Positions 8 to 15,180 of a DNA stretch of 15,721 nt are shown piece by piece. The stretch comes from Paracoccus sp. (in: a-proteobacteria) (lineage in GTDB: Bacteria > Pseudomonadota > Alphaproteobacteria > Rhodobacterales > Rhodobacteraceae): the NCBI GenBank assembly GCA_018056045.1, contig JAGPGI010000016.1, forward strand, positions 1-15,721, written 5' to 3'. A program made the position numbers and the translations under genes. The first letter of the stretch is position 1; every line of letters starts with the position of its first letter. Under the pieces are notes generated by a model that saw only the letters and a program-made list of their open reading frames with translations, was not told the origin of the DNA and did no database searches.

Positions 8-341
8 CGGTTCATCCCCGCGCATGCGGGGAACAGGCCGCGGTCGAGGCTGCGGGCTTCCGCACGCACGGTTCATCCCCGCGCATGCGGGGAACAGGTT
101 CGCCGCGGCACGTTCCGCCTTCTTTGCCTCGGTTCATCCCCGCGCATGCGGGGAACAGTCACAATCTGATGACCGCAATTGTTCTCGCGGCGGTTCATCC
201 CCGCGCATGCGGGGAACAGGGATCAAACCCGGCCGATGGCCCCGATTACACCGGTTCATCCCCGCGCATGCGGGGAACAGCTCGCCGAATCCGACCAAGC
301 CGTCTCCGACGCCGGTTCATCCCCGCGCATGCGGGGAACAG
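8..341 (-). CRISPR. Type I-E CRISPR array, six repeats visible, continues beyond left edge
   Basis: Six identical 29-bp repeats lie at 8-36, 69-97, 130-158, 191-219, 252-280 and 313-341, separated by five spacers of exactly 32 bp; bases 1-7 are the end of a further spacer, so the array continues out of the window. Read on the minus strand (the cas direction), each repeat carries a CCCCGC / GCGGGG stem with an ATGC loop and ends in the handle ATGAACCG, the usual type I-E architecture. The leader-side end is at 341, next to cas2, so new spacers should be added there. The repeats show no degeneration, which suggests a recently active array. The spacers show no match elsewhere in the window that I can see. 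Confidence 0.98.
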
Positions 342-408: not shown

Positions 409-1596
<1,188 letters not shown>

Positions 1597-1597
<1 letters not shown>

Positions 1598-2288
1598 CAG
1601 GCGCGCCGGAGCAGCATCAGCCCGCAGCCAAAGGCCTTGGCGCGGCCGAAGCCCGCCGCGATGGCGGCCAGAAACAGCGCGGGCTCGGTAACGGTCAGCG
1701 TCCCGGTCAGGTCGAGAATGCCGAATTGCGGCTGGCCTTTGCGCTTGCCCCTGTGGCCGGGCAGCACGGCCACGGAATAATCGCCGACCTCGACCCGCGC
1801 GGGGGCAAAGCCGTGCCGCGCCCCCTGCCCCGCCAGCCAGCCTTCGGCCACCTGCCGCGCCGCCGCCATGCGCGCCTCGGCCCGGCCCTGTTTCAGCGGA
1901 TGGATCGCATCCATGACCAGGTCGATATGCCGCTTTTTCTCGGCCCCGCCGGCGGATCGGGTGCCGGTCTTTTCGGTGCGCGTGGCATTGGCGCGCAGGG
2001 CGAAAGCCAGCCGGTCACCGGGCCGCAGATCGGGGGTGAACGCCTTGACCTCGGGCGGCTCGAACAGCGCGCCGGCATTCGGGGCGCGCCGCGACAGGGT
2101 GATGAAACGGCCCTCGCCCTCGGCCCGCCACAGGAAATCGCGCGCGGCCGCCGGATCGCCGGCAAAGGCCGACCAGACCAGCCGGTGATGGGCGTCGCGC
2201 TGCGGGCCGTCGCCCGGCGGGTTCAGCAGCGCTGACAGCGCATCAAGCGAGGGGTCGCGGGCCAGTTGCAGGCGCGAGATAAACAGGC

Positions 2289-2292
<4 letters not shown>
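1597..2292 (-). CDS. cas6e: Cas6e, CRISPR RNA endonuclease of Cascade
   Basis: Cuts the pre-crRNA at the base of each repeat hairpin and stays bound to the 3' end of the mature crRNA within Cascade. The 231-residue protein begins MSLFISRLQL, typical of CasE/Cse3. It has an N-terminal HHRLVW segment (H35, H36) matching the region of the family's catalytic histidine, and ends with the glycine-rich GFGRAKAFGCGLM motif expected for RAMP proteins. It is somewhat longer than the E. coli protein (199 residues). The start overlaps the cas5e stop by 4 bp (ATGA). In this locus it should also process the degenerate repeats of the creA-like RNA at 6272-6360, the second of which keeps a full stem. Confidence 0.95.
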
Positions 2293-4543
<2,251 letters not shown>

Positions 4544-4547
<4 letters not shown>

Positions 4548-6019
4548 GTGGTTTCCTTCCTGCGTTTGGCCGGGACCGGCACGGGCAGCGTCAGCGCGGC
4601 GTAAACCCCCGCCCCCTCGCCATAGCCGGCAAAGGCCGCGCCCAGCCGGCGATGCGCCGCGACGATCTCGCGCTGCACCTTCACGTCGCGTTCCGACAGG
4701 CCCGGCAGCGCCCGCGCCTCAAACAGCGCCAGCGCCACCCGGCGCAGTACGGCAAGCCAGTCCCGCGCCACGGCTTCGATCCCGGCGCCAGCCTCCAGCG
4801 CCGCCAGCCCGGCCTCGAACGCCGCCTGCGTCTCGGCATAGAACGCCTCGCGCAGCGCCTCGCGCGCCTCGCCCTCGGCCATGACCGGGGTCAGCGCCCG
4901 GCGCAGCGCCAGCGCATAGATATCGGCCGCCCCGACCATGCCCGTCAGGCAGGCCAGCGCCCTGCCCTGCAACCGCACCAGCGGCGGCGTCGACAGGATG
5001 AAATCGCGCGGCTTCATATTGTCCATCGCCCAGCCCGCGACCAGCACCCGCGCGCGCCGGCCGCCGCTGCGCGCGAACCAGTTGCGCAGCACCAGCGCCC
5101 GGCGTTGCAGCCCGTCGCCGTCATCCTGCGCCGCCATCACCACGCCCAGCCAGTGGCGATAGCCGAACAGCCCCGCTCGCGGATGTTTCGGCAGCCATTC
5201 ATCGGTCAGCTTCAGCCGGTAATAGGGCGTCAGCGGATGGTCCCAACCGGCATAATTGGTGCCGTAAGGGCGCTGGATCACGCCGGTGATCCGGCCCCCG
5301 TCCCCGACCAGCCGCAAGCGGCGCGGCATGCCGAAAAACGCCTCGGCGGGATGGGCCTGTTCGGGATAAACCGCCCGCCCGCCTTCGGATGTCACCGTTG
5401 CCCGCATCCAGGGCAGAACCCCGGGCCCCGCCGGCAGGCCGTCGGGGACATTGGCCCAGATCGTCGCCCACAGCCCGCCCTGCGGCTGCACCAGCGTCAG
5501 CAGCGGCCCACCCCCCCGCATCGAGGTGCGGTTTCCCGCACCGCCCGCCGGCGCAAAGGCCTGGAAAGTGTACAGCGCCATCGCCGCCAGCGCCGGCTCC
5601 AGCGCCGGATAACGGTCGCGCCAGACCATCAGATCGGCATTGTTCCTGACCGTCTGCCCGCCGGCGCTGTCGATGAACAGCATGTCGGGCGGGTTCGCCT
5701 CGCCTGGCAGATCCTCGCGGTCCTGCAAGAAACGCGGGCCGCCGCCCATCAGATCAAAGGCCGGGGCCAGATCCGCCAGCCGCGCCCGCAGCCGGTCGGG
5801 ATCGGGCTTTTGACGCGCCTCCCAGTCCTCGGCATCCCCGGGCGGATCGGCCAGCAAGACCAGCCCGATCAGCAGTTCCAGACAGGCAAGGTTCAGGTCG
5901 GCGCGCGGCCAGTCCAGCCGCCGGATCGCGGCATCGGCCATCTGCCAGGGGGCAATGATGCGGCGCGTCCCATCGGCTGAGATAACCGGGATCCAGGCGT
6001 CGGTGATGAGGTTGAGCAA
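4544..6019 (-). CDS. cse1: Cse1 (Cas8e), Cascade large subunit, TTG start
   Basis: Large Cascade subunit that reads the PAM and recruits Cas3. The protein has 491 residues (502 in E. coli). It begins with the recognisable LLNLITDAWIPVISADG, the standard CasA N terminus, which fixes the start at a TTG codon at 6019. AAGGGA lies 9 bases upstream and no in-frame ATG or GTG is available nearby. Internal features include PAFDLMGGGPRFLQ and GGGPLLTLVQPQGGLWATIW. A weak start codon combined with an upstream RNA toxin module suggests that Cascade levels are set in this leader. Its transcript may start at the promoter at 6216-6244 and read through the creT-like element, or come from cas3. Confidence 0.95.
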
Positions 6020-6052
6020 AGCGGCAATTCCCTTGAATATGCGGAATGAATT

Positions 6053-6097
6053 GCCTTTGGCGCTCGAACCTGCGTAAATGGGACGAGCGCCAAAGGC
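6053..6097 (-). terminator. 14-bp stem-loop after the creT-like mini-ORF
   Basis: Bases 6053-6066 and 6084-6097 are perfect 14-bp inverted repeats (GCCTTTGGCGCTCG on the plus strand) with a 17-base loop. On the minus strand the hairpin begins directly after the TAA of the mini-ORF and ends about 33 bases before the cse1 start. No long U-run follows, so it may act as a 3' stabilising structure or a leaky terminator between creT and cse1 rather than a strong terminator. Confidence 0.75.
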
Positions 6098-6118
6098 TTA
6101 GGCTATTAAGATTCTCAT
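6098..6118 (-). CDS. Six-residue mini-ORF MRILIA of the creT-like element
   Basis: ATG at 6118 with a textbook Shine-Dalgarno (AAGGAGG, 8 bases upstream of the ATG) encodes M-R-I-L-I-A and stops at TAA. The codons after ATG are AGA, ATC, TTA, ATA and GCC. AGA, TTA and ATA are codons that a GC-rich genome avoids and that are read by scarce tRNAs. CreT toxins studied in archaea stall ribosomes on AGA or on AUA codons near the start; this ORF carries both kinds and a TTA. It has the strongest ribosome-binding site in the cas region, which would be odd for a meaningless hexapeptide. Confidence 0.7.
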   Translation of the reverse strand: MRILIA

Positions 6119-6178
6119 CTTCTTAACCTCCTTGTTGCTTACGGTCCTGCAACGACCGTGCTCAGAGATGGGCCTACC

Positions 6179-6214
6179 AGCCGCGAACCGGTTAGCTCTG
6201 GTTCGCGGCTTTTT
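6179..6214 (+). terminator. Rho-independent-type terminator hairpin on the plus strand
   Basis: Perfect 11-bp arms AGCCGCGAACC (6179-6189) and GGTTCGCGGCT (6200-6210) with a 10-base loop, followed by T residues to 6214. On the plus strand it has all features of an intrinsic terminator, so it could end an RNA made antisense to the creT-like region. On the minus strand the same stem would form the 5' end of the creT-like RNA. No convincing plus-strand promoter was found, so the 5'-stem role may be the real one. Confidence 0.6.
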
Positions 6215-6215
6215 C

Positions 6216-6244
6216 ATGCTGGCATGGTGTGCAATGTCTGTCAA
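6216..6244 (-). promoter_or_regulatory. Predicted creT promoter
   Basis: Perfect -35 TTGACA at 6244-6239, a 17-bp spacer, and a weak -10 CAGCAT at 6221-6216. This would start transcription near 6210, at the base of the 11-bp stem-loop. The -35 overlaps the PAM-distal end of the Cascade self-target (6274-6243), so bound Cascade would block RNA polymerase. The promoter may also serve cse1 and the downstream cas genes by read-through. Confidence 0.6.
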
Positions 6245-6277
6245 CCAGCTTTGCTTACGCCATACAGCTACACTCTT
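6243..6277 (-). promoter_or_regulatory. Self-target (protospacer plus AAG PAM) of the creA-like RNA
   Basis: On the minus strand, AAG at 6277-6275 is followed by a 32-base site from 6274 to 6243. Compared with the pseudo-spacer (6332 to 6301), positions 1-22 match except 6, 14 and 18; positions 23-32 are essentially unmatched. AAG is the canonical type I-E PAM in E. coli. Positions 6 and 18 belong to the every-sixth bases flipped out of the crRNA-DNA duplex and tolerated in Cascade binding. A seed-perfect but incomplete match is expected to allow Cascade binding without Cas3 destruction. Confidence 0.78.
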
Positions 6278-6360
6278 ATCCCCGCGTGTGCGGGGAACAT
6301 TCTCCATGAAGCTTCCGCAATACAGCGACACTCGGAGCATCCCCGCTTTCAGGGGAACAT
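6272..6360 (-). ncRNA. creA: CreA-like crRNA: degenerate repeat-spacer-repeat between cas3 and cse1
   Basis: Two diverged copies of the array repeat lie at 6333-6360 (28 bp) and 6272-6300 (29 bp), with exactly 32 bp between them; their starts are 61 bp apart, the array period. The first copy, in transcription order, has a shortened stem (CCCC/GGGG) and the handle ATGCTCCG. The second keeps the full CCCCGC/GCGGGG stem with an ACAC loop, but its last six bases have been replaced by the PAM and the start of the target site. Eight of 29 positions differ from the array repeat. The RNA should be processed or bound by Cas6e and Cascade and guide it to the adjacent creT promoter. This mirrors CreA antitoxins known from Haloarcula type I-B loci. 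A decayed array remnant is the alternative, but the self-match with a PAM argues against it. Confidence 0.8.
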
Positions 6361-6365
6361 CATCT

Positions 6366-6395
6366 TGTCTACTCATGACTGACCCGCACTGTCAA
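6366..6395 (-). promoter_or_regulatory. Predicted creA promoter in the 3' end of cas3
   Basis: Perfect -35 TTGACA at 6395-6390, overlapping the last Phe-Asp codons of cas3, an 18-bp spacer, and -10-like TAGACA at 6371-6366. Transcription would begin near 6360, the first base of the first degenerate repeat. The promoter therefore seems dedicated to the creA-like RNA, independent of cas3 transcription. Six-of-six -35 matches are uncommon in this GC-rich DNA, and the creT promoter also has one. Confidence 0.55.
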
Positions 6396-8874
6396 AGACA
6401 ATCCCCCGCTCGGGGTCATAGCGCAGCCCGTCGCAGATCGCCCCGTCCCCGTCCCCGGCCAGCGGACAGACGGTGACGCTGGCCCGGCGCCAGTCCGGCC
6501 AGTCGGCGATCAGCGCGGCAATCTCGGGCGCGGTCTGATCGGGCAGGGCCAAGGCCGCCAGCCGATGCGCGGCCACCTGAACCTCGGACGATTGCCAGCC
6601 CTCGGCATCATTGTCCCCGGCATAGGGCCGCAGGCCCTGCCCCGCGCGCCGGACCAGCAGCAGCGCCCGCTGCGGCCGGCCAAGCCGGGTCGGATAATCG
6701 GTATCCGCCGCCGCCGCATTGCCGCGATAGCCGGCCTTCAGGTCGATCAGGTTGCGCCGCGCCTGATTGGCCTCGGCATAGCCCTGCCCCAGCCGCTCGA
6801 CCTCGGCGCGTTCCAGCACCCCGGGCATGGGCGCGGCATCGGGGCCATGAACCGCCTCGATCAGCGCCCGCAGCCCCTGCGGCGCGGTGATCCGGCCGAC
6901 CCGGAACAGCACCTCGGCGGTGCGCCATTGCAGGTCCAGCGGATAGACCCAGGCGCCGCGATCCAGCACCCGATGCAGCCATTGGTCGTCCTCGACCCGG
7001 CCCGGATCGGGCGCGACGACATGCAGCACCGGTGCCGGAACCGGGCGCCGATCCGCCGGGCGCAGGTCCATATGCCGCCACAACCGCCCTGCCCGCTGCA
7101 CCAGCGCGGCAATCGGCGCAAGGTCGGAAATCATCACATCAAAGTCTAAATCAAGTGAGTTTTCAACAACTTGCGTGGCGACGAGCACCCTGCCCCGACG
7201 CCCTGCCCCGTGCTTTCCAAAGACATCCATCAGCGCGCGTTCATGCCGCAGCCGGTCGGCCAGCGCAAAGCGCGCATGCAGCAGATCGGCGCGGATCCCG
7301 GCGGCCCGCAGCGCCTCGACCCCGGCGATCGCGTCATCGACGGCATTGCGCACCCACAGGCAGGCCGCGCCCTGCCCCGCCTTGTCGCGCAGCAGCGCCA
7401 CCGCCTCCTCCATGCCGGCCAGCCGGCTGACCGTGACCGGTCCCTTGCCGCCGGAGACCGGCTCCAGATCCCGCCGGCACTCGCCCGCCGCGACGGTCAG
7501 CGCCGGATAGGCCGGATGCCCGTCATCGCCGGCCCCCCAGGCCGCCAGCAAGTCCCGGCGCTGATCCAGCGGCAAGGTTGCCGTCAGCAGGATCGCCGAG
7601 CCTCCGGCCATGCGATGCGCGCGCAACAGCTGCGCCAGCTCGGCCGCCATGTAGGGCGCGCCCATCTCATGCACCTCGTCCACGATCAGGATTTTCGAGG
7701 CCAGCCCGTAATGGCGCAGCGTGGCAAAGCGCGTCGGCAGAACCGACAGCAGCGCCTGATCGACGGTCCCCACGCCCACCGTCGCCAGCAAGGCCCGGCG
7801 GCGGCTGTCCGCCAGCCACTCGGTGCAGATCGGCGCATCGGAGGACTGACGCGGATCCAGACGGACGGCACGAAAATCCTCGGACATTCCCGCCCGCCCA
7901 TGCGCCAGCGTCAGGCTGGGCGGGCTGGTAAACATCCGGCGCACCACCTGCCGCGCCCGGCGAAACATCGCATCCGCCGTGGCCGTGCTCGGCAGGGCAA
8001 AGAACAGCCCCCTGCCCTTGCCCGCGACCATCATCCGTTGCGCCAGGATCAGCGCCGCCTCGGTCTTGCCGACGCCGGTTTCATCCTCGATCACCGCCAG
8101 CATCGGCCCGTCCGTCAAAACCACCCCGGCCGCCGCGCGCTGCATCGGGCGCAGGTCGAAATCAAACAGCGCCCCGTCCGCAGCCGCAGGCACCGACAGT
8201 CCCGCCGCCGCGACCGCCAGCGCCGCCCGTTCGCGCGCACCGCTCAGATAATCCGCAACCGTTGGCCCCGGCCTGCATGGCGGAAACCAGTCGGTGTTCG
8301 AGCCGATCCAATCCGCCGCCGCGACCAGACCCGGCAGCCACCAGTTCAGCGCCTGCGTGCTCTCGCCCGTCAGACCGTCCAGAGACGCGCCCGGCCACAG
8401 CCCGGCAACCAGCCGGATCGCCTGCGCCGCATCGGCGATGCCATCGGCGCCGACGGCATCAGTCAAACGCCAATCCTGAAGGTCGGCAAGCCCGGGCGGC
8501 CGACCGTGATGCCCCGCGACCGAGGCGTAAAGCCGATTTCGCTGCGACCGGGTCCCGCCCAGAAGATCGGCGAGAAGGCCGTCATGGTGATACAGCAAAA
8601 CCTCGGTCATTTCCCAATGCCGCGCGTATTGCCGCGCGCCGGTGGTCAGCATCGCCCGGAAACTGTCGCTGATCTTGCCCAGATCATGCAGCGCCGTCAG
8701 CATAACCAGCGCGTCACGCATTGCGGCCGTGAAGGGCTCGGCAGCGATCAGCCGCTCGGCCACGGCGGCGACATCCAGCATGTGATACAGTGCCGGATGC
8801 GCGATGCCGCGATCATCCGGGCTTTTGCCGGGCCAGCCAGTAAGGCGCGTCGCTGCTTCGGCGGTCTCGGTCAT
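6373..8874 (-). CDS. cas3: Cas3, type I-E CRISPR helicase-nuclease
   Basis: Single-strand nuclease and 3'-5' helicase recruited by Cse1 to shred targeted DNA. The 833-residue protein has an N-terminal HD nuclease domain (H31, HD at 63-64 in ALHDLGK, HH at 96-97 and GHHGRP at 121-126). It is followed by a superfamily 2 helicase: Walker A ETGVGKT at 265-271, DEVH box at 399-402, TAT at 431-433, VATQVVENSLDLD near 565-577 and QRAGR at 593-597; a C-terminal domain completes it. All catalytic motifs look intact. GAGGGAG lies 7 bases before the ATG at 8874. Only 49 bp separate it from repC, and that gap is largely taken up by parS, so its promoter is not obvious; read-through from repC is possible. 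Its last codons carry the predicted creA promoter. Confidence 0.97.
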   Translation of the reverse strand: MTETAEAATRLTGWPGKSPDDRGIAHPALYHMLDVAAVAERLIAAEPFTAAMRDALVMLTALHDLGKISDSFRAMLTTGARQYARHWEMTEVLLYHHDGLLADLLGGTRSQRNRLYASVAGHHGRPPGLADLQDWRLTDAVGADGIADAAQAIRLVAGLWPGASLDGLTGESTQALNWWLPGLVAAADWIGSNTDWFPPCRPGPTVADYLSGARERAALAVAAAGLSVPAAADGALFDFDLRPMQRAAAGVVLTDGPMLAVIEDETGVGKTEAALILAQRMMVAGKGRGLFFALPSTATADAMFRRARQVVRRMFTSPPSLTLAHGRAGMSEDFRAVRLDPRQSSDAPICTEWLADSRRRALLATVGVGTVDQALLSVLPTRFATLRHYGLASKILIVDEVHEMGAPYMAAELAQLLRAHRMAGGSAILLTATLPLDQRRDLLAAWGAGDDGHPAYPALTVAAGECRRDLEPVSGGKGPVTVSRLAGMEEAVALLRDKAGQGAACLWVRNAVDDAIAGVEALRAAGIRADLLHARFALADRLRHERALMDVFGKHGAGRRGRVLVATQVVENSLDLDFDVMISDLAPIAALVQRAGRLWRHMDLRPADRRPVPAPVLHVVAPDPGRVEDDQWLHRVLDRGAWVYPLDLQWRTAEVLFRVGRITAPQGLRALIEAVHGPDAAPMPGVLERAEVERLGQGYAEANQARRNLIDLKAGYRGNAAAADTDYPTRLGRPQRALLLVRRAGQGLRPYAGDNDAEGWQSSEVQVAAHRLAALALPDQTAPEIAALIADWPDWRRASVTVCPLAGDGDGAICDGLRYDPERGIVFDSAGQS

Positions 8875-8923: not shown

Positions 8924-10144
8924 CTATGCCGCCTTCCGCATCAGGGCCATGATCATCGGGCCACACGAGAAGGCGCCTGTCGCGGCTTTCGTCGTCAGGC
9001 TCCGCAGATAGCCGCCGGGCGAGCGGATGTCGGCAAATCGCTCCAACATCGCCGCCAGAACCACCGCGGCCTGCTCTGGCCCCATGGCTTCCCGTGCCTC
9101 GCTCCAGGCCGAGGGTGAAATGCCCATCATCGGCCGCACGACGTCGGCGGCCCGAACAAGCTGGTGCCAGTGCCTGATCGGGCCATCACCATAATTCTGG
9201 ATTTCAGCACAGACCGACACGACCAGCGCCAACGGGATATTCGGCAGATTCAGATCAGCAGGGTCTTCGGCATCGGTCTCGATCCTTTCTGTCCGGTCGT
9301 CAGCGCCCGGCGCCGCCACCATTGCCCGTTCTGGGCAAGGTTCAAGATCATAAGAGTCTGCCTTTGAATTCTGATAGTGCTGTTCATTATTGGCGGCATT
9401 GCTGCTCGATTCTTGTGTATCGATACGACAATCCAGCACATCCCTGGCCCGGTTGAGCGCAGCCAGCAACTCGCTTTGAAGTCGCCCCAGATCGCTTGCC
9501 CCCAGTTTGCGCCGCAGCGCGCGGGCGGAAAGCGCGGCAAGGTCAGACAGTTGATCCCAGAGCGCCAGGTCGGGGCGTAGGCCGGCCCCATAGGCGGCCA
9601 GCCCGGCCAGGTCGCGGCGCATCAGGCTGACCGTCTCGCGCAGGCGCGACAGATGCTCGGCAGCGGCGCGGGCGGTTTCGGCGGCGGCGAGGATTTCGGC
9701 CTGCCGCGCGATCAGCGGCGAGAGGTCAAAGCCGAAGGCGACGGTTTCCTCGGCGTAGCGGCGGGCATAGCGCTTGCCGTTCGGGCTGTCGCGACGCAGG
9801 ATCAGACCGGTTTCCACCAGACGGGCCAAATGCCGGCGCATCGTCGATGAGGCCATGCCCTTCAGCCGCTCGCAGATCGAGACGTTCGAGGGATGGACGA
9901 GCGGCGGGCCGTCATTGCCGCCAAGCGTGGTGCCGGGATGAAAGCTGACAAGCGCCTCCAGCACGGCCAGATCGCGGTCCGAGAGACCGAAGGCCGCACG
10001 GCCGGCGATCAGCTCGCGCAGGGTTTCCCATTTGTTGACGGTACGCGCGCCGGTGCTGTCGGCACCCCGCGCAACAGCCTGCGCGCGGTGCAATTGGCCA
10101 GCATCGACCGGCCGCAGAAAAGCGGTGACGGGTGCATAGGTCAT
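8924..10144 (-). CDS. repC: RepC, plasmid replication initiator
   Basis: Initiator protein of repABC replicons, acting in cis on an origin inside its own gene. The N-terminal part carries the RepC winged-helix region, with NKWETLRELIAGRAAFGLSD, PSNVSICERLKGMASSTMRR and RRDSPNGKRYARR. A variable linker rich in N, Q and S follows (DTQESSSNAANNEQHYQNSK), then the C-terminal RP-C domain with MMGISPSAWSEAREAMGPEQ. I favour the ATG at 10144 (MTYAPVTAFLRP, 406 residues), although the frame is open to an ATG at 10177 (417 residues). Neither start has a clear ribosome-binding site, in line with repC translation being controlled by RNA structure in the 154-187 bp upstream gap. It is the third gene of the operon, and its stop abuts parS. 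Confidence 0.92.
   Translation of the reverse strand: MTYAPVTAFLRPVDAGQLHRAQAVARGADSTGARTVNKWETLRELIAGRAAFGLSDRDLAVLEALVSFHPGTTLGGNDGPPLVHPSNVSICERLKGMASSTMRRHLARLVETGLILRRDSPNGKRYARRYAEETVAFGFDLSPLIARQAEILAAAETARAAAEHLSRLRETVSLMRRDLAGLAAYGAGLRPDLALWDQLSDLAALSARALRRKLGASDLGRLQSELLAALNRARDVLDCRIDTQESSSNAANNEQHYQNSKADSYDLEPCPERAMVAAPGADDRTERIETDAEDPADLNLPNIPLALVVSVCAEIQNYGDGPIRHWHQLVRAADVVRPMMGISPSAWSEAREAMGPEQAAVVLAAMLERFADIRSPGGYLRSLTTKAATGAFSCGPMIMALMRKAA
9341..9433. other. AT-rich candidate origin of replication within repC
   Basis: Bases 9341-9420 are about 60% A+T by my count, against roughly a third in the surrounding DNA. They encode the low-complexity linker of RepC. In studied repABC plasmids the origin lies in an AT-rich segment in the middle of repC. 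This placement fits, but no iterons or DnaA boxes were identified here. Confidence 0.5.
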
Positions 10145-10194
10145 GTTTTTGTTCACGAAGGCAAAGAATATCCGCATCGCGAATCACTCAGGAC

Positions 10195-10223
10195 TTGCGA
10201 AACTGCGCGTCTGGACCTACCTT
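10195..10223 (+). promoter_or_regulatory. Predicted promoter of the incompatibility antisense RNA
   Basis: TTGCGA (10195-10200), a 17-bp spacer and TACCTT (10218-10223), oriented against repABC. It would start an RNA near 10230 that ends at the hairpin at 10246-10279. The match to sigma-70 consensus is moderate, but the distance to the terminator gives the ~50-nt length typical for repABC antisense RNAs. Confidence 0.5.
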
Positions 10224-10229
10224 GAAGGT

Positions 10230-10279
10230 GCTAGAAACAAGATTGGGTCTCGTGAGGTGAAAGCTTTGCGGGACCTTTT
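10230..10279 (+). ncRNA. ctRNA: Predicted counter-transcribed RNA (incompatibility factor) of repABC
   Basis: The repB-repC gap of repABC plasmids encodes a small antisense RNA that lowers RepC synthesis and determines incompatibility. On the plus strand here a 7-bp stem (10246-10252 GGTCTCG with 10269-10275 CGGGACC, one G-U pair) is followed by TTTT at 10276-10279, a classic intrinsic terminator. It lies about 50 bases after the predicted start near 10230. The RNA is complementary to the repC leader. The ends are predictions. Confidence 0.7.
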
Positions 10280-10331
10280 CGTTACCTGGTTCGTGCCTCC
10301 TGCTCTGGTTATCGTTGACTGCTCGTTGCCT

Positions 10332-11330
10332 CTATCGGCCCTGGTCCTGCCAGCGCTGATAAAGCTCGTAGAGAAGCACACCGGCTTCCTGTTCCATCCA
10401 ATCCGCGAATTCGCCCGGCGCCAGATCAAGGCGCAGGCCCTTGGCATTGCGCGATACCCGCGCGGCGTAATCATCGGCCAGCGAGATCCTGCGCGGGGCC
10501 GGGGCGGGCTTTTTCGCCGCCGGCCGGGCAGGGGCGCCGGGTTGGGGCAGGGCGGCCTGCACAGCCTCAAACGCGGCGACCGAGGGGTCGAAATCCTCGG
10601 GCTGCGCCTGCGCCAGAGCCGCGCTGCTGTAGGCCATCGCCCGCTCTCGTTCGGCCAGTTCGGCCAGCGCCGCGCGGTCTGCGCCCATCTGATCGATGGT
10701 GCGTCCCATGGCCTCCCACCGGGGGCGGCCGACGCCATAGGCGGGACCGATCGCGCGCACCAGATCGGCGCCGACCTGCTCGATGACGGTCAGCGCCATC
10801 GAGACCGAGGACTTGGTCACCGTCAGCACCTCGGCCACCTGGGCCTGCGTTCCAAAGCCGCTGTCGACCAGCTCGCGGGCGAACAGCGCTTTTTCGATAT
10901 AGCTGAGATCGCGGCGCGCCATGTTTTCCGAAATCTGCGCGCGCAGAGCGTCATCATCCCCCATGGATGCAACCAACGCCCTGATCGTGCTGATCTTTTC
11001 AGAGGCACGGATGGCCATCAACCGGCGATAGCCATAGACCAGCAGATAGCGGTCGGGCCGCGCCGGATCGCGCCGGACCAGGATCGGAACCGTCTGGCCG
11101 TTCTGTTCGATGGCGTCGCGCAGATCCTCTAGCCCGGATTCGTCCAGCCGGTCGCGAATGCGGTCGCCGATGTCGATGTGGTCGGGGTCGAGTTCCCACA
11201 CGCGATGCGCATCGACGGCATCGCGGGCGGCGCGCAGGGCGCGGTTGCCCGGCATGATCGAGGCCGGCGTCGGGGCGGCGGCACCGGCGAGATTGTCCAG
11301 CAGCGACATGCGTTGTTTCTTGTTCGTCAT
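10332..11330 (-). CDS. repB: RepB, ParB-family plasmid partition protein
   Basis: Centromere-binding protein that loads onto parS (8907-8922) and works with RepA to segregate the plasmid; in repABC systems it also acts as co-repressor. The 332-residue protein begins MTNKKQRMSLLDNL. It has the ParB CTPase-domain motifs LLVYGYRRLMAIR (about residues 96-108) and ENMARRDLSYIEKA (about 135-148), and a helix-turn-helix near 159-182 (GTQAQVAEVLTVTKSSVSMA). A proline/alanine-rich stretch (APARPAAKKPAPAPRR) links to the C-terminal dimerisation domain. Its ATG overlaps the repA stop by 4 bp. The stop is followed by the antisense-RNA gap before repC. Confidence 0.95.
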   Translation of the reverse strand: MTNKKQRMSLLDNLAGAAAPTPASIMPGNRALRAARDAVDAHRVWELDPDHIDIGDRIRDRLDESGLEDLRDAIEQNGQTVPILVRRDPARPDRYLLVYGYRRLMAIRASEKISTIRALVASMGDDDALRAQISENMARRDLSYIEKALFARELVDSGFGTQAQVAEVLTVTKSSVSMALTVIEQVGADLVRAIGPAYGVGRPRWEAMGRTIDQMGADRAALAELAERERAMAYSSAALAQAQPEDFDPSVAAFEAVQAALPQPGAPARPAAKKPAPAPRRISLADDYAARVSRNAKGLRLDLAPGEFADWMEQEAGVLLYELYQRWQDQGR

Positions 11331-12547
11331 TTCAGTCCTCCCGCCCGGCCCCAGGTACGCTGGATCAGGCTGGCAATTTCGTCATTGACGGCATTCAGGC
11401 TTTCGATGGCGCGGTCATAGGTGGTGCGGGTAAAGGCGCTGCGCTCGACCTCGTAAAGGGTCTGCTTGGTCAGGCCAGCGTCGGAAATCGCGGTGGATTT
11501 CAGCATCGGCGCGTTCAGCACCTTTTCGCCATACATCGTGCGCAGGAAGGCGACGATGCGGTTCTGCGGCGCGTCGGTGGGTTCATAGCGGGTCAGCAGA
11601 TAGCGCATCCAGTCATGCGACATGTCGGCGCCGCTGCCGGCAATGACATCCATCAGATCGGCAGTCATGCGCAGGAATTGCGACATCGACATCACGTCCA
11701 GCATCTCGGGATGGATGGTGACCAGGACGCCGGTGGCGGCGGACAGCGCCGACATGGTCAGAAAGCCCAGCTGCGGCGGGCAATCGATCACCACCACGTC
11801 ATAATCGGCATCGACCTGCGCCAAAGCCTCGCGCACGCGGAAGAAGAACAGGCCGGCATGGCCCGCCGTCAGCGCGCGCGGGGTGTCGTGCTCGAATTCC
11901 ATCAGCTCGAGATTGCCGGGAATGAGGTCGAGGCCGGGAATATAGGTCGGGCGGATGACGTCGCGGATGGGGCAGGGGTCGTCATAACGGATCGCATCAT
12001 AGAGGGTGCCGCCCTCGGGAATGTCGATTTCGGGCTGGACGCCGTGCAGAGCGGTCAGCGAGGCCTGCGGATCGAGGTCGATCGCCAGCACCCGATAACC
12101 CAGCAGGGCCAGCCGTTGCGCCAGATGCGCCGCGGTGGTGGTCTTGCCCGAACCACCCTTGAAGTTCATCACCCCGATGATTTGCAGGTGATCGCCCTGT
12201 CGTCGCCCGGGCAGGTAATCGCCAGGTTTGCGTGCCGTCTTTTCAAGCAGTTGCCGCAGGTCCTGGATATCCTGCGCCGAATAGAGGCGCCGATTTCCGC
12301 CGGTCAATTCGGGCGAGGGACCCTTGCCATCGAGGTTCAGCTTGCGAAGATAGCTGTCATTGACGCCCAGCAGGGCCGCGGCTTCGCCCGAGGTGAACTT
12401 GCGCATCGCCTTGTGCGCATCGGGCGGAAACAGGCTTTCGCGTTGCGCATGAAGCTGCGCCGCCAGCTGTTCGGCCTGTTGGCGAATGACCCAGTTCAGG
12501 TCTTCGCGCTGGAAACCACTGCCCATAGACTGCCCGTTCGTGTTCAC
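11327..12547 (-). CDS. repA: RepA, ParA-family partition ATPase
   Basis: Walker-type ATPase that moves RepB-parS complexes and represses its own operon. From the GTG at 12547 the protein has 406 residues. A MerR-like helix-turn-helix lies at about 51-70 (FTSGEAAALLGVNDSYLRKL), the deviant Walker A motif KGGSGKTT at 130-137, and Walker B-type VVVIDCPPQLGF around residue 255. An ATG seven codons downstream (12526) is an alternative start; neither has a good ribosome-binding site. It heads the repABC operon, overlapping repB by 4 bp, and is divergent from the vapB-vapC pair across a 186-bp regulatory gap, where RepA should bind to autorepress. Confidence 0.96.
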   Translation of the reverse strand: MNTNGQSMGSGFQREDLNWVIRQQAEQLAAQLHAQRESLFPPDAHKAMRKFTSGEAAALLGVNDSYLRKLNLDGKGPSPELTGGNRRLYSAQDIQDLRQLLEKTARKPGDYLPGRRQGDHLQIIGVMNFKGGSGKTTTAAHLAQRLALLGYRVLAIDLDPQASLTALHGVQPEIDIPEGGTLYDAIRYDDPCPIRDVIRPTYIPGLDLIPGNLELMEFEHDTPRALTAGHAGLFFFRVREALAQVDADYDVVVIDCPPQLGFLTMSALSAATGVLVTIHPEMLDVMSMSQFLRMTADLMDVIAGSGADMSHDWMRYLLTRYEPTDAPQNRIVAFLRTMYGEKVLNAPMLKSTAISDAGLTKQTLYEVERSAFTRTTYDRAIESLNAVNDEIASLIQRTWGRAGGLK

Positions 12548-12733: not shown

Positions 12734-12979
12734 ATGTCACAATCCACCGTCACCGTGAAGGGCCAGACCACCTTGCCAAAGGCGGTGCGGCAGGCGCTGT
12801 CGCTGTCGCCAGGCGATCAGCTGCGCTATGTCATTCTGGATGACGGGCAGGTGCGGCTGCTGCGGACGCGGCCGGTGGCCGATCTGGCCGGGCTGCTGCA
12901 CCGGGACGGGCAGGCGGCCGTCTCGCTGGACGAGATGGAGGCGGCGATCGCGGCCGGCGCACGGGATGGGGCCGCGTGA
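12734..12979 (+). CDS. vapB: AbrB/MazE-type antitoxin (VapB)
   Basis: Antitoxin of a type II pair; it binds and neutralises the PIN toxin and autoregulates the operon. The 81-residue protein has an N-terminal swapped-hairpin AbrB fold, TVTVKGQTTLPKAVRQALSL followed by SPGDQLRYVI. The C-terminal tail is acidic and amphipathic (LDEMEAAIAAGARDG) and should wrap the toxin. The ATG at 12734 is chosen because the AbrB domain begins right after it. Its stop overlaps the vapC GTG by 4 bp. The pair probably acts as a plasmid addiction module beside repABC. Confidence 0.9.
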   Translation: MSQSTVTVKGQTTLPKAVRQALSLSPGDQLRYVILDDGQVRLLRTRPVADLAGLLHRDGQAAVSLDEMEAAIAAGARDGAA

Positions 12980-13386
12980 CCGGTCTCGATACCAATGTCC
13001 TTGTCCGCTATCTGGTCCAGGATGATCCGGTGCAGGCCGCCTTGGCGACCGAGGCAATCACCGCGCTGACTGAGGCGGCGCCTGGCTGGATTTCCCGCGA
13101 AGTGATGATCGAGACGGTCTGGGTGCTGGAACGCGCCTATCGCCTGTCGCGCAGCGATATTGCCGATGCGATCGACGGGCTGCTGGCCGCGCGCGAGCTG
13201 GTGGTTGAAGAATCCGATCGCGTTGGACTGGCGGCGCAACGCTGGCGCGCGGGCGGGGCGGGATTCGCGGACCAGATGATCGCGCTGGCCGGGCAGGGCG
13301 CCGGCTGCGACAGAACCCTGACTTTCGACCTGAAGGCAGCCGGGATTCCGGGCATGGCGCTGCTGGCACCGGGGCGAGATGGCTGA
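12976..13386 (+). CDS. vapC: VapC-type PIN-domain toxin
   Basis: Predicted Mg-dependent ribonuclease toxin. The 136-residue protein starts at a GTG overlapping the antitoxin stop and opens with GLDTNVLVRYLVQDD, the standard PIN start. The four acidic active-site positions are visible: D5, E46 (ETVWVLERAY), D99 (FADQMIA) and D118 (LTFD). VapC enzymes cut tRNA or rRNA; which one cannot be read here. It is intact, transcribed with the upstream antitoxin, and followed 13 bp later by a terminator hairpin. Confidence 0.93.
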   Translation: MTGLDTNVLVRYLVQDDPVQAALATEAITALTEAAPGWISREVMIETVWVLERAYRLSRSDIADAIDGLLAARELVVEESDRVGLAAQRWRAGGAGFADQMIALAGQGAGCDRTLTFDLKAAGIPGMALLAPGRDG

Positions 13387-13458: not shown

Positions 13459-14499
13459 TCATCCCAGCAGGTCGGTCGCGGGGTTCCTCGTTATCTCGAC
13501 ATCTGCGTAATAGCGTTGCGCCTGCGCCGGCGATCGGTGCAGCGACAGCTGCATGGCGGCGGGCAGGGGGGCACCGTCCAGCGCGGCCTGGGTCAGAAAG
13601 CCCGAGCGCAGCCCGTGCGGGCTGGCGAAGCCCGGCGGATAGCCGGCCAGCTCCAACCGATGCGCGACGATCGCCCGGAAGCCGCCCGGCGTCAGCCGGC
13701 GGGTCAGCACCCGATCGGCCTGGCTGATCGGCCGGAACAGCGGCCCGCCTGTGATCCCGGCGGCAGCGATCCAGGCCAGCACGGATCGCGCCGGAAATCC
13801 TTTGAGCGGCAACCACGGCGCCTGATCGGGTGTCGTGGTCTTGGTGTGCAGCAGACGGATGCGGATCAGCCCGCGCTCCGCCATTGGCCGGAGATCGATA
13901 TCGTCAAGATCCAGCGCCGTGACCTCGGAACGCCGGCGCCCACCGCTGCCCCAGGCCAGCGCGAGGGCGGCATGGTCGCGCCGGTCACGCAGCGCGCCAG
14001 TGCCGCAGGTCGCGAGCATCGCCCTCAGCACATCGCGGGTGATCGGGTTCTCGGATTTCCGCTGGCGAGGGCGGGCGGCGGCCCGCCGCGCCTTGGCCCG
14101 CGCCTCCTTCAGCAGCGGCGCGTCAAAGGGCGAGATCAGGTTCTTCATCCGGTGGAAGGCGCGCCAGCTGGCGATGCGGCGATCCAGAGTGGACGGGGCA
14201 GGGGCGGCGTATCCTCGCCGGAGCCCGGCACCCACCAGCGCCTCGGTCGCGCTGCGCGCCGGCCCGCTGGCCGCGCTGAGGTCCTGGGCGTGGTCGAGGA
14301 TGAAGCGCAGCGCCACGGCCTCGCTTTCGGGCCAGGACAGTGGCTGACCGAAAGCGGCAGCTTTCCAGGCGGCGATATAGGCCAGGTCCTGCTCGTATGC
14401 GCGCAAGGTGTTCTCGGCCGTGCCACGGCGGAAGAGCTCGGTCAGGGCGTCCTGATCGGCAAGGGTGAGTGAGATGGGAGCGAGGGGAAGGCTTGTCAT
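13459..14499 (-). CDS. Tyrosine recombinase (phage-integrase family)
   Basis: Site-specific recombinase, probably for plasmid multimer resolution or integration. The 346-residue protein has an N-terminal SAM-like core-binding domain (about 15-130) and a C-terminal catalytic domain with the full set: R179 in GGRRRSEV, K210 in HTKTTT, H285 and R288 in SPHGLRSG, H311 in LSLHRS and Y320 in AQRYYADV. Nothing is missing, so it should be active. It converges with vapC and diverges from the Phd/VapC pair. No attachment site is certain, but the 12-7-12 inverted repeat at 15243-15273 has the shape of a core site for such enzymes. Similar recombinases are common beside repABC loci. Confidence 0.93.
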   Translation of the reverse strand: MTSLPLAPISLTLADQDALTELFRRGTAENTLRAYEQDLAYIAAWKAAAFGQPLSWPESEAVALRFILDHAQDLSAASGPARSATEALVGAGLRRGYAAPAPSTLDRRIASWRAFHRMKNLISPFDAPLLKEARAKARRAAARPRQRKSENPITRDVLRAMLATCGTGALRDRRDHAALALAWGSGGRRRSEVTALDLDDIDLRPMAERGLIRIRLLHTKTTTPDQAPWLPLKGFPARSVLAWIAAAGITGGPLFRPISQADRVLTRRLTPGGFRAIVAHRLELAGYPPGFASPHGLRSGFLTQAALDGAPLPAAMQLSLHRSPAQAQRYYADVEITRNPATDLLG

Positions 14500-14510: not shown

Positions 14511-14532
14511 TAAACTAGATTGTAAACCAGAT
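14511..14532 (+). repeat. Tandem 10-bp operator-like repeats before the Phd/VapC pair
   Basis: TAAACTAGAT at 14511-14520 and TAAACCAGAT at 14523-14532 are direct repeats with one mismatch and a 12-bp period, just upstream of the antitoxin ribosome-binding site (AAAGGA, 14534-14539). The position suggests an operator for the Phd-type antitoxin, which would also cover the promoter region of the divergent recombinase gene. Confidence 0.5.
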
Positions 14533-14545
14533 GAAAGGACGAACC

Positions 14546-14788
14546 ATGCGCGAGATCGGTGCCTTCGAGGCCAAGACCCATCTGTCCGAGCTGCTGGCCG
14601 CCGCCGAGGCCGGCGAATCCGTGCTGATTACCCGGCGCGGCGCCCCCGTTGCGCGCCTTGTGCCCGCAGGCGGCAACCGTGCGGCCGCGCTGGCGCGGCT
14701 GGCCGCGTTGCGCAGCCGGTTGGCAGAGCGGAACGTGAGATTGTCAGCCTCGGAGATCCTGTCGGCGCGGGATGAAGGCCGGCGCTGA
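14546..14788 (+). CDS. Phd/YefM-type antitoxin
   Basis: Antitoxin partner of the adjacent PIN toxin. The 80-residue protein begins MREIGAFEAKTHLSELLAAA and has VLITRRGAPVARLVP, the typical Phd/YefM N-terminal DNA-binding fold. The C-terminal helix ends in SASEILSARDEGRR and should contact the toxin. I start at the ATG at 14546, which has AAAGGA six bases upstream; an in-frame ATG at 14531 would only add five residues. Its stop shares one base with the toxin start (TGATG). It is divergent from the recombinase and probably autoregulated through the repeats at 14511-14532. Confidence 0.92.
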   Translation: MREIGAFEAKTHLSELLAAAEAGESVLITRRGAPVARLVPAGGNRAAALARLAALRSRLAERNVRLSASEILSARDEGRR

Positions 14789-15180
14789 TGCTGATCATCG
14801 ATGCCTCGGCCCTGGTCGGATGGCTGATGCCCGACGAAACCGGCCCTGACCTGCAGGCAGAACTGGCCCGGCATGACGAGCTGGTGGCGCCCTGGCTCCT
14901 GTGGGTCGAGCTTCGCAACATCCTGCTGGTCAGCGAACGCCGGGGCCGACTGCCAGCCGGCATAGCCGAGCAGATCGTCGAAACCATCGATGGTCTGGGC
15001 ATCCGACTGGACACAACGCCATCCGGGCCGGTGGTCTTCGACCTGTGCCGGCGCCACGGACTGACCGCCTATGACGGCCTCTATCTGGAGGCCGCCCTGC
15101 GCCATGGCGGTCCGTTGGTCACCCTGGATCGGGCCTTGCGTCAGGCGGCAGCCGCCGAAGGCGTCTCGGTCATCGACTGA
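14788..15180 (+). CDS. vapC: VapC-type PIN-domain toxin, second copy
   Basis: Predicted ribonuclease toxin of 130 residues, of a different PIN subgroup from the one at 12976. It has D5 in MLIIDASALVGWL, E41 in WVELRN, D96 in LTAYDGLYLEAA and D114 in VTLDRAL, the complete PIN acidic quartet. The TAYDxxYLxxA signature is typical of VapC toxins paired with Phd-like antitoxins. It is translationally coupled to the antitoxin by a one-base overlap. The gene is intact, and no clear terminator follows. The pair gives this replicon a second protein-based addiction system. Confidence 0.93.
   Translation: MLIIDASALVGWLMPDETGPDLQAELARHDELVAPWLLWVELRNILLVSERRGRLPAGIAEQIVETIDGLGIRLDTTPSGPVVFDLCRRHGLTAYDGLYLEAALRHGGPLVTLDRALRQAAAAEGVSVID

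Follow-up and report, generated by a model that had tools for sequence, protein, structure and literature searches.

The window, by which we mean the whole 15,721-nucleotide stretch analysed here, is contig C277 of a Paracoccus assembly of 3.04 Mb that is 72% complete. On its minus strand it carries repABC genes followed by cas3, cse1, cse2, cas7, cas5, cas6e, cas1, cas2 and a CRISPR array, with every gene of a type I-E locus present according to Pfam. The repABC setting described in an earlier note on this DNA was supported by Pfam matches to RP-C, ParB_N and a ParA-type AAA_31, together with a RepB match that stays below its cut-off, and with these genes beside it the type I-E locus looks like a plasmid-borne one. 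The genes and the array are arranged as follows.

8..341, minus strand: CRISPR array, six exact 29-nt repeats within the window (sequence)
409..4547, minus strand: cse2, cas7, cas5, cas6e, cas1 and cas2, the remainder of the type I-E operon (Pfam)
4544..6019, minus strand: cse1 (casA) (Pfam CRISPR_Cse1)
6373..8874, minus strand: cas3 (HD and helicase), upstream neighbour of the gap (Pfam Cas3_HD, Cas3-like_C_2)
8924..12547, minus strand: repC, repB/parB and repA/parA of the repABC replicon (Pfam)

Near repABC, the plus strand encodes a MazE/PrlF-type antitoxin with a PIN protein (12737–13386) and a Phd/YefM-type antitoxin with a PIN protein (14531–15180), and between these two toxin-antitoxin pairs lies a tyrosine recombinase of the phage integrase family on the minus strand (13459–14499).

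The gap between cas3 and cse1 measures 353 nt. A distant-mode similarity search of the gap DNA against PLSDB gave no match, and Rfam returned one below-threshold IRES match and nothing else. The earlier note had placed in this gap a promoter, a crRNA-like degenerate mini-array, a PAM-flanked partial target running into a second promoter and a short structured RNA, and had read the whole as an RNA toxin-antitoxin of the CreTA type; each of these elements was recovered from the sequence on the minus strand, where they lie in the following positions.

6390..6395, minus strand: predicted creA promoter, −35 TTGACA inside the cas3 end, with a weak −10 at about 6372–6367 (sequence)
6333..6360, minus strand: psiR1, degenerate repeat of 28 nt (alignment with the array repeat)
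6301..6332, minus strand: psiS, spacer of the predicted CreA, exactly 32 nt (sequence)
6272..6300, minus strand: psiR2, degenerate repeat identical to the array repeat at 21 of 29 positions (alignment)
6275..6277, minus strand: PAM AAG (sequence)
6243..6274, minus strand: target (protospacer) of psiS, 19 of the first 22 positions matching
6239..6244, minus strand: predicted creT promoter, −35 TTGACA, with a weak −10 CAGCAT at 6221–6216 (sequence)
6179..6210, minus strand: hairpin 1 at the predicted CreT 5′ end (fold; two-sided changes in relatives)
6141..6159, minus strand: hairpin 2, upstream of the ribosome-binding site (sequence, fold)
6126..6133, minus strand: AAGGAGGT, full-length Shine-Dalgarno match, 7 nt before the start codon (sequence)
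6108..6121, minus strand: small hairpin including the start codon, 5-bp stem and GAGA loop (fold; not general in relatives)
6098..6118, minus strand: creT mini-ORF ATG AGA ATC TTA ATA GCC TAA, six codons (sequence)
6053..6097, minus strand: hairpin 3, 14-bp stem directly after the stop codon, without a U tract (fold, sequence)

The upstream half of the gap resembles a crRNA gene with degenerate repeats inside the cas locus, psiR1, psiS and psiR2 lying between cas3 and cse1. The last 8 nt of psiR1, ATGCTCCG, resemble the array handle ATGAACCG, so that most of the 5′ handle is retained, while psiR2 keeps the front of the repeat and has decayed in its last 8 nt, which contain the PAM, its end now reading ATAAGAGT. 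A first repeat that is good at its end and a second that is good at its start are what a two-handled CreA needs. The target starts inside the decayed end of psiR2 with AAG just before it, and it overlaps the −35 TTGACA by 2 nt. Over the first 22 positions psiS equals the target at 1–5, 7–13, 15–17 and 19–22; the mismatches fall at 6, 14 and 18 and for the most part past position 22. All ten seed positions (1–5 and 7–11) match, and the psiS seed thus faces a PAM-flanked target at the predicted toxin promoter. Of the two promoters claimed earlier, the −35 boxes stood, both being perfect TTGACA, but both −10 hexamers are poor, and a consensus promoter scan (at least 9 of 12 positions) over 5950–6450 reported none.

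Downstream of the target, the predicted CreT RNA (6210–6053) folds at −74.5 kcal/mol, whereas 200 Markov-resampled sequences fold at −46.9±7.5 kcal/mol. Its 5′-terminal hairpin 1 covaries, the number of two-sided pairs alone not going beyond shuffles. In the window and six relatives picked for visible similarity, 56 of 56 cells pair (81% in shuffles) and 12 cells carry a two-sided change (shuffles give 3.9, and not one of 500 gets as high); two-sided changes affect 4 of the 8 pairs, a count also reached by 107 of 500 shuffles. In the wider set of the window and 13 relatives, the share of paired cells is 80.4%, with shuffles giving 66.5%. On the opposite, plus strand, hairpin 1 (6179–6210) has a T run behind it and is scored as an intrinsic terminator; several relatives share the A run that comes before it on the minus strand. 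A peptide start at ATGAAAAAG within hairpin 1 was considered and dropped, its ATG not being kept in L040 and L047.

Strong Shine-Dalgarno, short rare-codon ORF and stem-loop are combined in this RNA, a set of traits that fits the tested archaeal toxins and not every CreT. The rarity of the codons in question is evident from the host itself, as ATA, TTA and AGA occur 2, 1 and 2 times in the 16 Pfam-matched genes of the window (4,623 codons). Together with CTA they are the four rarest sense codons in 35 ORFs from 20 contigs, a set chosen with a GC-pattern filter that itself lowers codons ending in A or T. Unfiltered ORFs gave 8.2 ATA, 1.9 AGA and 0.8 TTA per thousand, a count that disagrees for ATA and was set aside because long wrong-strand ORFs inflate this codon. 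tRNA-Arg(TCT) and tRNA-Leu(TAA) are each encoded by a single gene in the assembly, and no tRNA with a CAT anticodon was found in this incomplete assembly.

The most economical reading of the gap, and the most likely one, is a CreTA module (type VIII toxin-antitoxin); we regard it as quite probable that the spacer-target pair and the structured rare-codon mini-ORF form such a unit. CreA, the crRNA-like RNA, would guide Cascade onto the predicted creT promoter and keep creT silent, and on loss of Cascade CreT would be made and would probably stop growth, by occupying the few tRNAs that decode AGA, UUA and AUA. We infer for this that both RNAs are transcribed, that Cas6e processes CreA, that repression occurs without cleavage, and that CreT is toxic with tRNA depletion as the cause.

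CreTA with a toxin that acts through a hairpin at its start codon, as in Acinetobacter type I-F, and not by tRNA depletion, would account for the same arrangement. The window AUG is indeed part of a 5-bp stem closed by a GAGA loop (−3.0 kcal/mol), and the AUG of the Acinetobacter CreT is likewise found in a 5-bp stem (PMC10097628). As the stem takes up ATC and the TT of TTA while AGA sits in the loop, two of the rare codons in the window could serve structure. Local folding of 12 modules, however, gave start-codon pairing only in the window, L010 (−2.1 kcal/mol), L069 (−0.9 kcal/mol) and L047 (−0.3 kcal/mol), with none in the remaining eight, while rare codons recur. We hence consider toxicity through a start-codon hairpin unlikely; given the hairpin of the window copy, an Acinetobacter-type mechanism may nevertheless apply to this copy.

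Because the gap DNA had given no match in PLSDB, relatives were located through cse1. We compared 80 gaps, comprising the window, 75 of the best 80 of 90 cse1-relative loci and four further loci. Left out were L004, L052, L059 and L073, whose cas3 end was not found, L005, whose gap is filled by an ordinary array, L100, whose match begins at residue 95, and second-set loci that repeat first-set ones. For L016 and L007 the end of cas3 was assigned manually, upon which L016 yielded a module and L007, whose large gap is probably erroneous, did not. A module was called when a repeat-type handle and a G-rich stem lay upstream of the spacer and the target, preceded by a type I-E PAM, followed 30–150 nt downstream; this rule was written after the gaps had been read, its distance limit, initially 130 nt, having been raised to 150 nt and a looser form of the handle dropped. 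Without anchoring to the repeats, the seed-pair search picked up array repeats and hairpin arms as well, and the anchored rule was used instead.

Spacer-target pairing with 8–10 of 10 seed matches and a PAM was found in 22 of the 80 type I-E gaps, namely in 21 of the 31 gaps of at least 240 nt as opposed to 1 of the 49 smaller ones. Resampled targets (6,200 trials on the 31 large gaps) reached at least 9 of 10 seed matches in 0.05% and at least 8 in 1% of cases, and spacers held against the target of another locus reached at least 8 in 5 of 462 comparisons. The spacers themselves differ widely, a median of 6 of 22 bases being identical between loci. Mini-array and target are thus co-conserved in homologous loci despite differing spacers, which is what the earlier note had expected of a functional pair. 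AAG serves as PAM in 20 modules and ATG in two. By the rule, ten of the 31 large gaps contain no module (L003, L007, L019, L020, L025, L027, L067, L071, L076 and L079). L076 shows a 10/10 pair with AAG beyond the distance limit and went uncounted, as did L106 (8/10 by eye) and L164 (9/10 by eye, PAM AAA); L112 has the same sequence as L076.

The distribution of mismatches follows a pattern. Positions 6, 12 and 18 match in 5, 7 and 8 of the 22 modules, and the same period of six is found in type I-E Cascade. Positions 12 and 18 together match in 15 of 44 cells compared to 83 of 110 for positions 13–17 (Fisher P 2.5e-6, a value that overstates independence because the rules were written after the gaps had been seen and the modules are related). 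The low match counts at 12 and 18 were not built in, as selection used positions 1–5 and 7–11 and the 22-nt total served only as a tie-breaker. In the tested type I-B CreA, nucleotides 6 and 12 are described as unpaired, and mutating either is without effect (PMC8501985). Within the seed, position 9 is the most frequent mismatch, affecting 6 of the 22 modules (L011, L018, L031, L056, L058 and L061).

A TTGAC motif stands 15–62 nt after the target start in 18 of the 22 modules as opposed to 4.6% of resampled sequences, the range having been set after the gaps were seen. This bears on the notion that the locus has no function today and is the decayed remnant of a two-unit CRISPR array whose spacer had been duplicated. 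In 13 of the 22 modules the target starts 4–8 nt past the last GGG of psiR2, approximately where a second spacer would start, which makes a two-unit array plausible as the origin of the module. Mere decay is, however, at odds with mismatches that cluster at unread positions, with PAMs that are AAG or ATG, and with a −35 box and toxin half that are kept across unrelated spacers, so we give this explanation hardly any credence. Ordinary arrays are found in two Paracoccus loci, between cas3 and cse1 in L005 and upstream of cse1 in L004, where the cas3 end was not found, and a third Paracoccus locus, L003, has a decayed array where others hold the CreTA module. It is possible that arrays at this site were the source of the mini-array.

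Turning to the toxin half, we searched the relatives for mini-ORFs starting with ATG or GTG, preceded by a Shine-Dalgarno stretch of at least 4 nt, no longer than 14 codons and located 130–180 nt after the target start, a range that was set after the mini-ORF regions of the gaps had been seen. Such a mini-ORF was picked in 18 of the 22 modules, 137–178 nt after the target start, compared to 7.8% of resampled sequences, and Shine-Dalgarno stretches of at least 6 nt occur in 9 of the 22 as opposed to 0.3%. ATA, AGA, AGG or TTA are present in 12 of the 18 picks. They make up 17 of the 74 picked codons, whereas in the pooled cse1 genes of the same loci, in which ATA, TTA and AGA are the three rarest codons, they account for 53 of 9,858 (0.54%). 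In picks from resampled sequence, a control that retains the higher A+T of the gap, they amount to 6.8% of codons (binomial P 8e-6 for 17 of 74, again with independence overstated). The pick of L101 has TTA TTA TTA in a row, and AAA ATA CCY is common to L016, L018, L023, L031, L056 and L057. Six picks lack the four rare codons (L011, L014, L045, L058, L064 and L078), and in L021, L029, L061 and L062 no mini-ORF was picked by the rule. For L045 the rule took ATG GGG TAG, and GTG CAT AGA ATA CGC TGA was seen nearby by eye. The Shine-Dalgarno, the six-codon frame with rare codons and the terminal hairpin that the earlier note described for a short structured RNA are present in the window, and the position and rare codons of the mini-ORF are kept in most modules, not in all.

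Two further explanations concern the distance between the mini-ORF and cse1. Hairpin 3 ends 33 nt before the cse1 start, a scan revealed no promoter-like site in between, and as no U tract follows it, hairpin 3 is not a typical intrinsic terminator. A leader-peptide attenuator, in which ribosomes stalling at rare codons control the cse1 operon, would be in line with a strong Shine-Dalgarno, a short ORF and a hairpin directly after the stop codon just before cse1, but the missing U tract and a CreA-target pair that it leaves unexplained render it very improbable. Alternatively, the crRNA-like RNA may be a CreR that only tunes the Cascade operon, the target lying in the cse1 promoter and the stretch in between being a leader and not a toxin. 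CreR likewise guides the effector to the promoter of the cas operon and is generally not coupled with toxin genes (PMC12737573). The 33 nt after hairpin 3 without a U tract suit this explanation, as do L021, paired 10/10 with an ATG PAM and only 104 nt between target and cse1, and Roseomonas marmotae p1318-5 (L173), paired 10/10 with AAG in a gap of 148 nt, both with scant room for a toxin; the same guide can evidently sit directly before cse1 in a CreR-like manner. A plain leader, however, needs neither the full Shine-Dalgarno of the window nor a mini-ORF spaced as is typical of the family nor rare codons, and in L018, L031, L045 and L057 a hairpin with a U tract after creT, seen by eye along with more space before cse1, would separate creT from cse1. 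For the window we thus regard a toxin-free CreR as improbable.

Returning to CreTA, the short distance after hairpin 3, free of promoter-like sites, means that the creT promoter may also feed the cse1 operon, in which case the Cascade operon would regulate itself. Such a joint circuit need not hold across the family, because the four loci with a U tract have more space there. Combining these elements, we tentatively propose, as a conjecture that we hold to be somewhat less probable than its opposite, a type I-E branch of CreTA that resides on bacterial plasmids and whose toxin RNA and Cascade operon would both be driven by a single promoter silenced by Cascade, so that loss of Cascade would free the poison and the repair order together. 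The six-codon frame would drain the Arg-UCU, Leu-UAA and Ile-CAU tRNAs, and CreR would be the form that this site takes without a toxin, making CreTA and CreR two states of one locus.

Several published systems share parts of this arrangement. The earlier note had named CreTA as known from archaeal type I-B loci; CreTA is not confined to them, having been tested in Acinetobacter type I-F (PMC10097628) and Citrobacter rodentium type I-E (PMC12055562). In archaea, a CreT that acts through rare tRNAs has been demonstrated, the modules being those of Halobacterium hubeiense and Haloarcula hispanica, with the CreT of H. hubeiense having a Shine-Dalgarno, six codons, rare codons and a stem-loop (PMC8501985). 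Common to these archaeal modules and ours are a seed at 1–5 and 7–11 that pairs with the toxin promoter next to a PAM and a short rare-codon ORF; two degenerate repeats are shared with H. hubeiense, a strong Shine-Dalgarno with H. hispanica, and the stem-loop that the archaeal toxins require has its counterpart in a hairpin here (PMC8501985). The rare codons of the window are single (AGA, UUA and AUA), whereas the tested archaeal toxins carry tandem pairs, that is, two consecutive identical rare codons, AUA or AGA (PMC8501985).

Citrobacter rodentium has a type I-E CreTA in the cas3-casA gap, with a PAM-flanked target at the toxin promoter as in the window, for which Cascade is needed and cas3 is not (PMC12055562), which means that belonging to type I-E would not by itself be new. 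Its toxin, however, is a 96-bp ORF that lacks rare codons and has to be translated, in contrast to six codons here, and its creA lies on the opposite strand, whereas creA and creT share a strand in the window (PMC12055562). The Acinetobacter type I-F module resembles ours in its place between cas3 and the first effector gene, its two degenerate repeats and its Shine-Dalgarno-led mini-ORF, but the mini-ORF diverges from creA and toxicity arises via the start-codon hairpin and not via rare tRNAs (PMC10097628). That the rare-codon mechanism can work in a bacterium is indicated by a synthetic CreT with AGA, AGG and CTA runs that kills E. coli; it likewise places several kinds of rare codons in one short frame, but is man-made from an archaeal toxin and not a natural CRISPR-linked module (PMC12362730). 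No natural bacterial rare-codon CreT is described in the passages of the CreTA and CreR literature that we covered, including PMC9458426, PMC12737573, PMC8730458, PMC12948488, PMC9379143 and PMC10767807. Among the literature matches listed for CreTA with Paracoccus, Rhodobacter or Alphaproteobacteria, nothing relevant appeared. Li et al. are said to have predicted several bacterial CreTA modules in 2021.

CRISPR systems are costly and often lost. If the CreTA reading is true, a considerable fraction of the type I-E loci in this survey, which belong mostly to Rhodobacterales and lie in part on complete plasmids, would carry a hidden lock against the loss of Cascade, and archaea would not be the only organisms with a natural tRNA-depleting CreT. 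The 22 natural spacer-target pairs further bear on the guide positions that Cascade needs for silencing without cutting. The repABC setting makes a link between CRISPR addiction and plasmid addiction plausible: on a replicon that has repABC and another two toxin-antitoxin pairs, cells that lose the plasmid could likewise be punished by the lock, but only if CreT outlives CreA.

To look at wider samples, we ran tblastn against PLSDB, where cse1 relatives were found in 32 records at E 1e-30. Twelve records were taken and 11 analysed (limit 200 nt), L172 with its 61-nt gap being left out. A pair with AAG was present in 4 of the 11, the other seven showing none by the rule, and the PLSDB gene table, which lists no RNA genes, leaves the gaps of these relatives blank. 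Besides the Roseomonas plasmid, Haematobacter massiliensis pOT1-4 has a pair with AAG, its module being the same as that of L078, Paracoccus aestuarii p296221 a pair with AAG and the mini-ORF GTG CTA AAA ATA CCC TAG (by eye), and Acidiphilium pACRY02 (L175) an 8/10 pair with AAG. An ORF reading ATG AGA CGG AGA TAC CGG ATA without a clear Shine-Dalgarno was noted in pACRY02. In a class-wide sample of 385 genomes, 11 had a Cse1 match, and the seven gaps read by eye contained one possible module (L106) in addition to L112, identical to L076. The more distant L106 has a possible spacer-target pair (8/10, ATG PAM, by eye) in the gap upstream of cse1, and it also contains a 17-codon ORF with AGA AGA after AGAGG.
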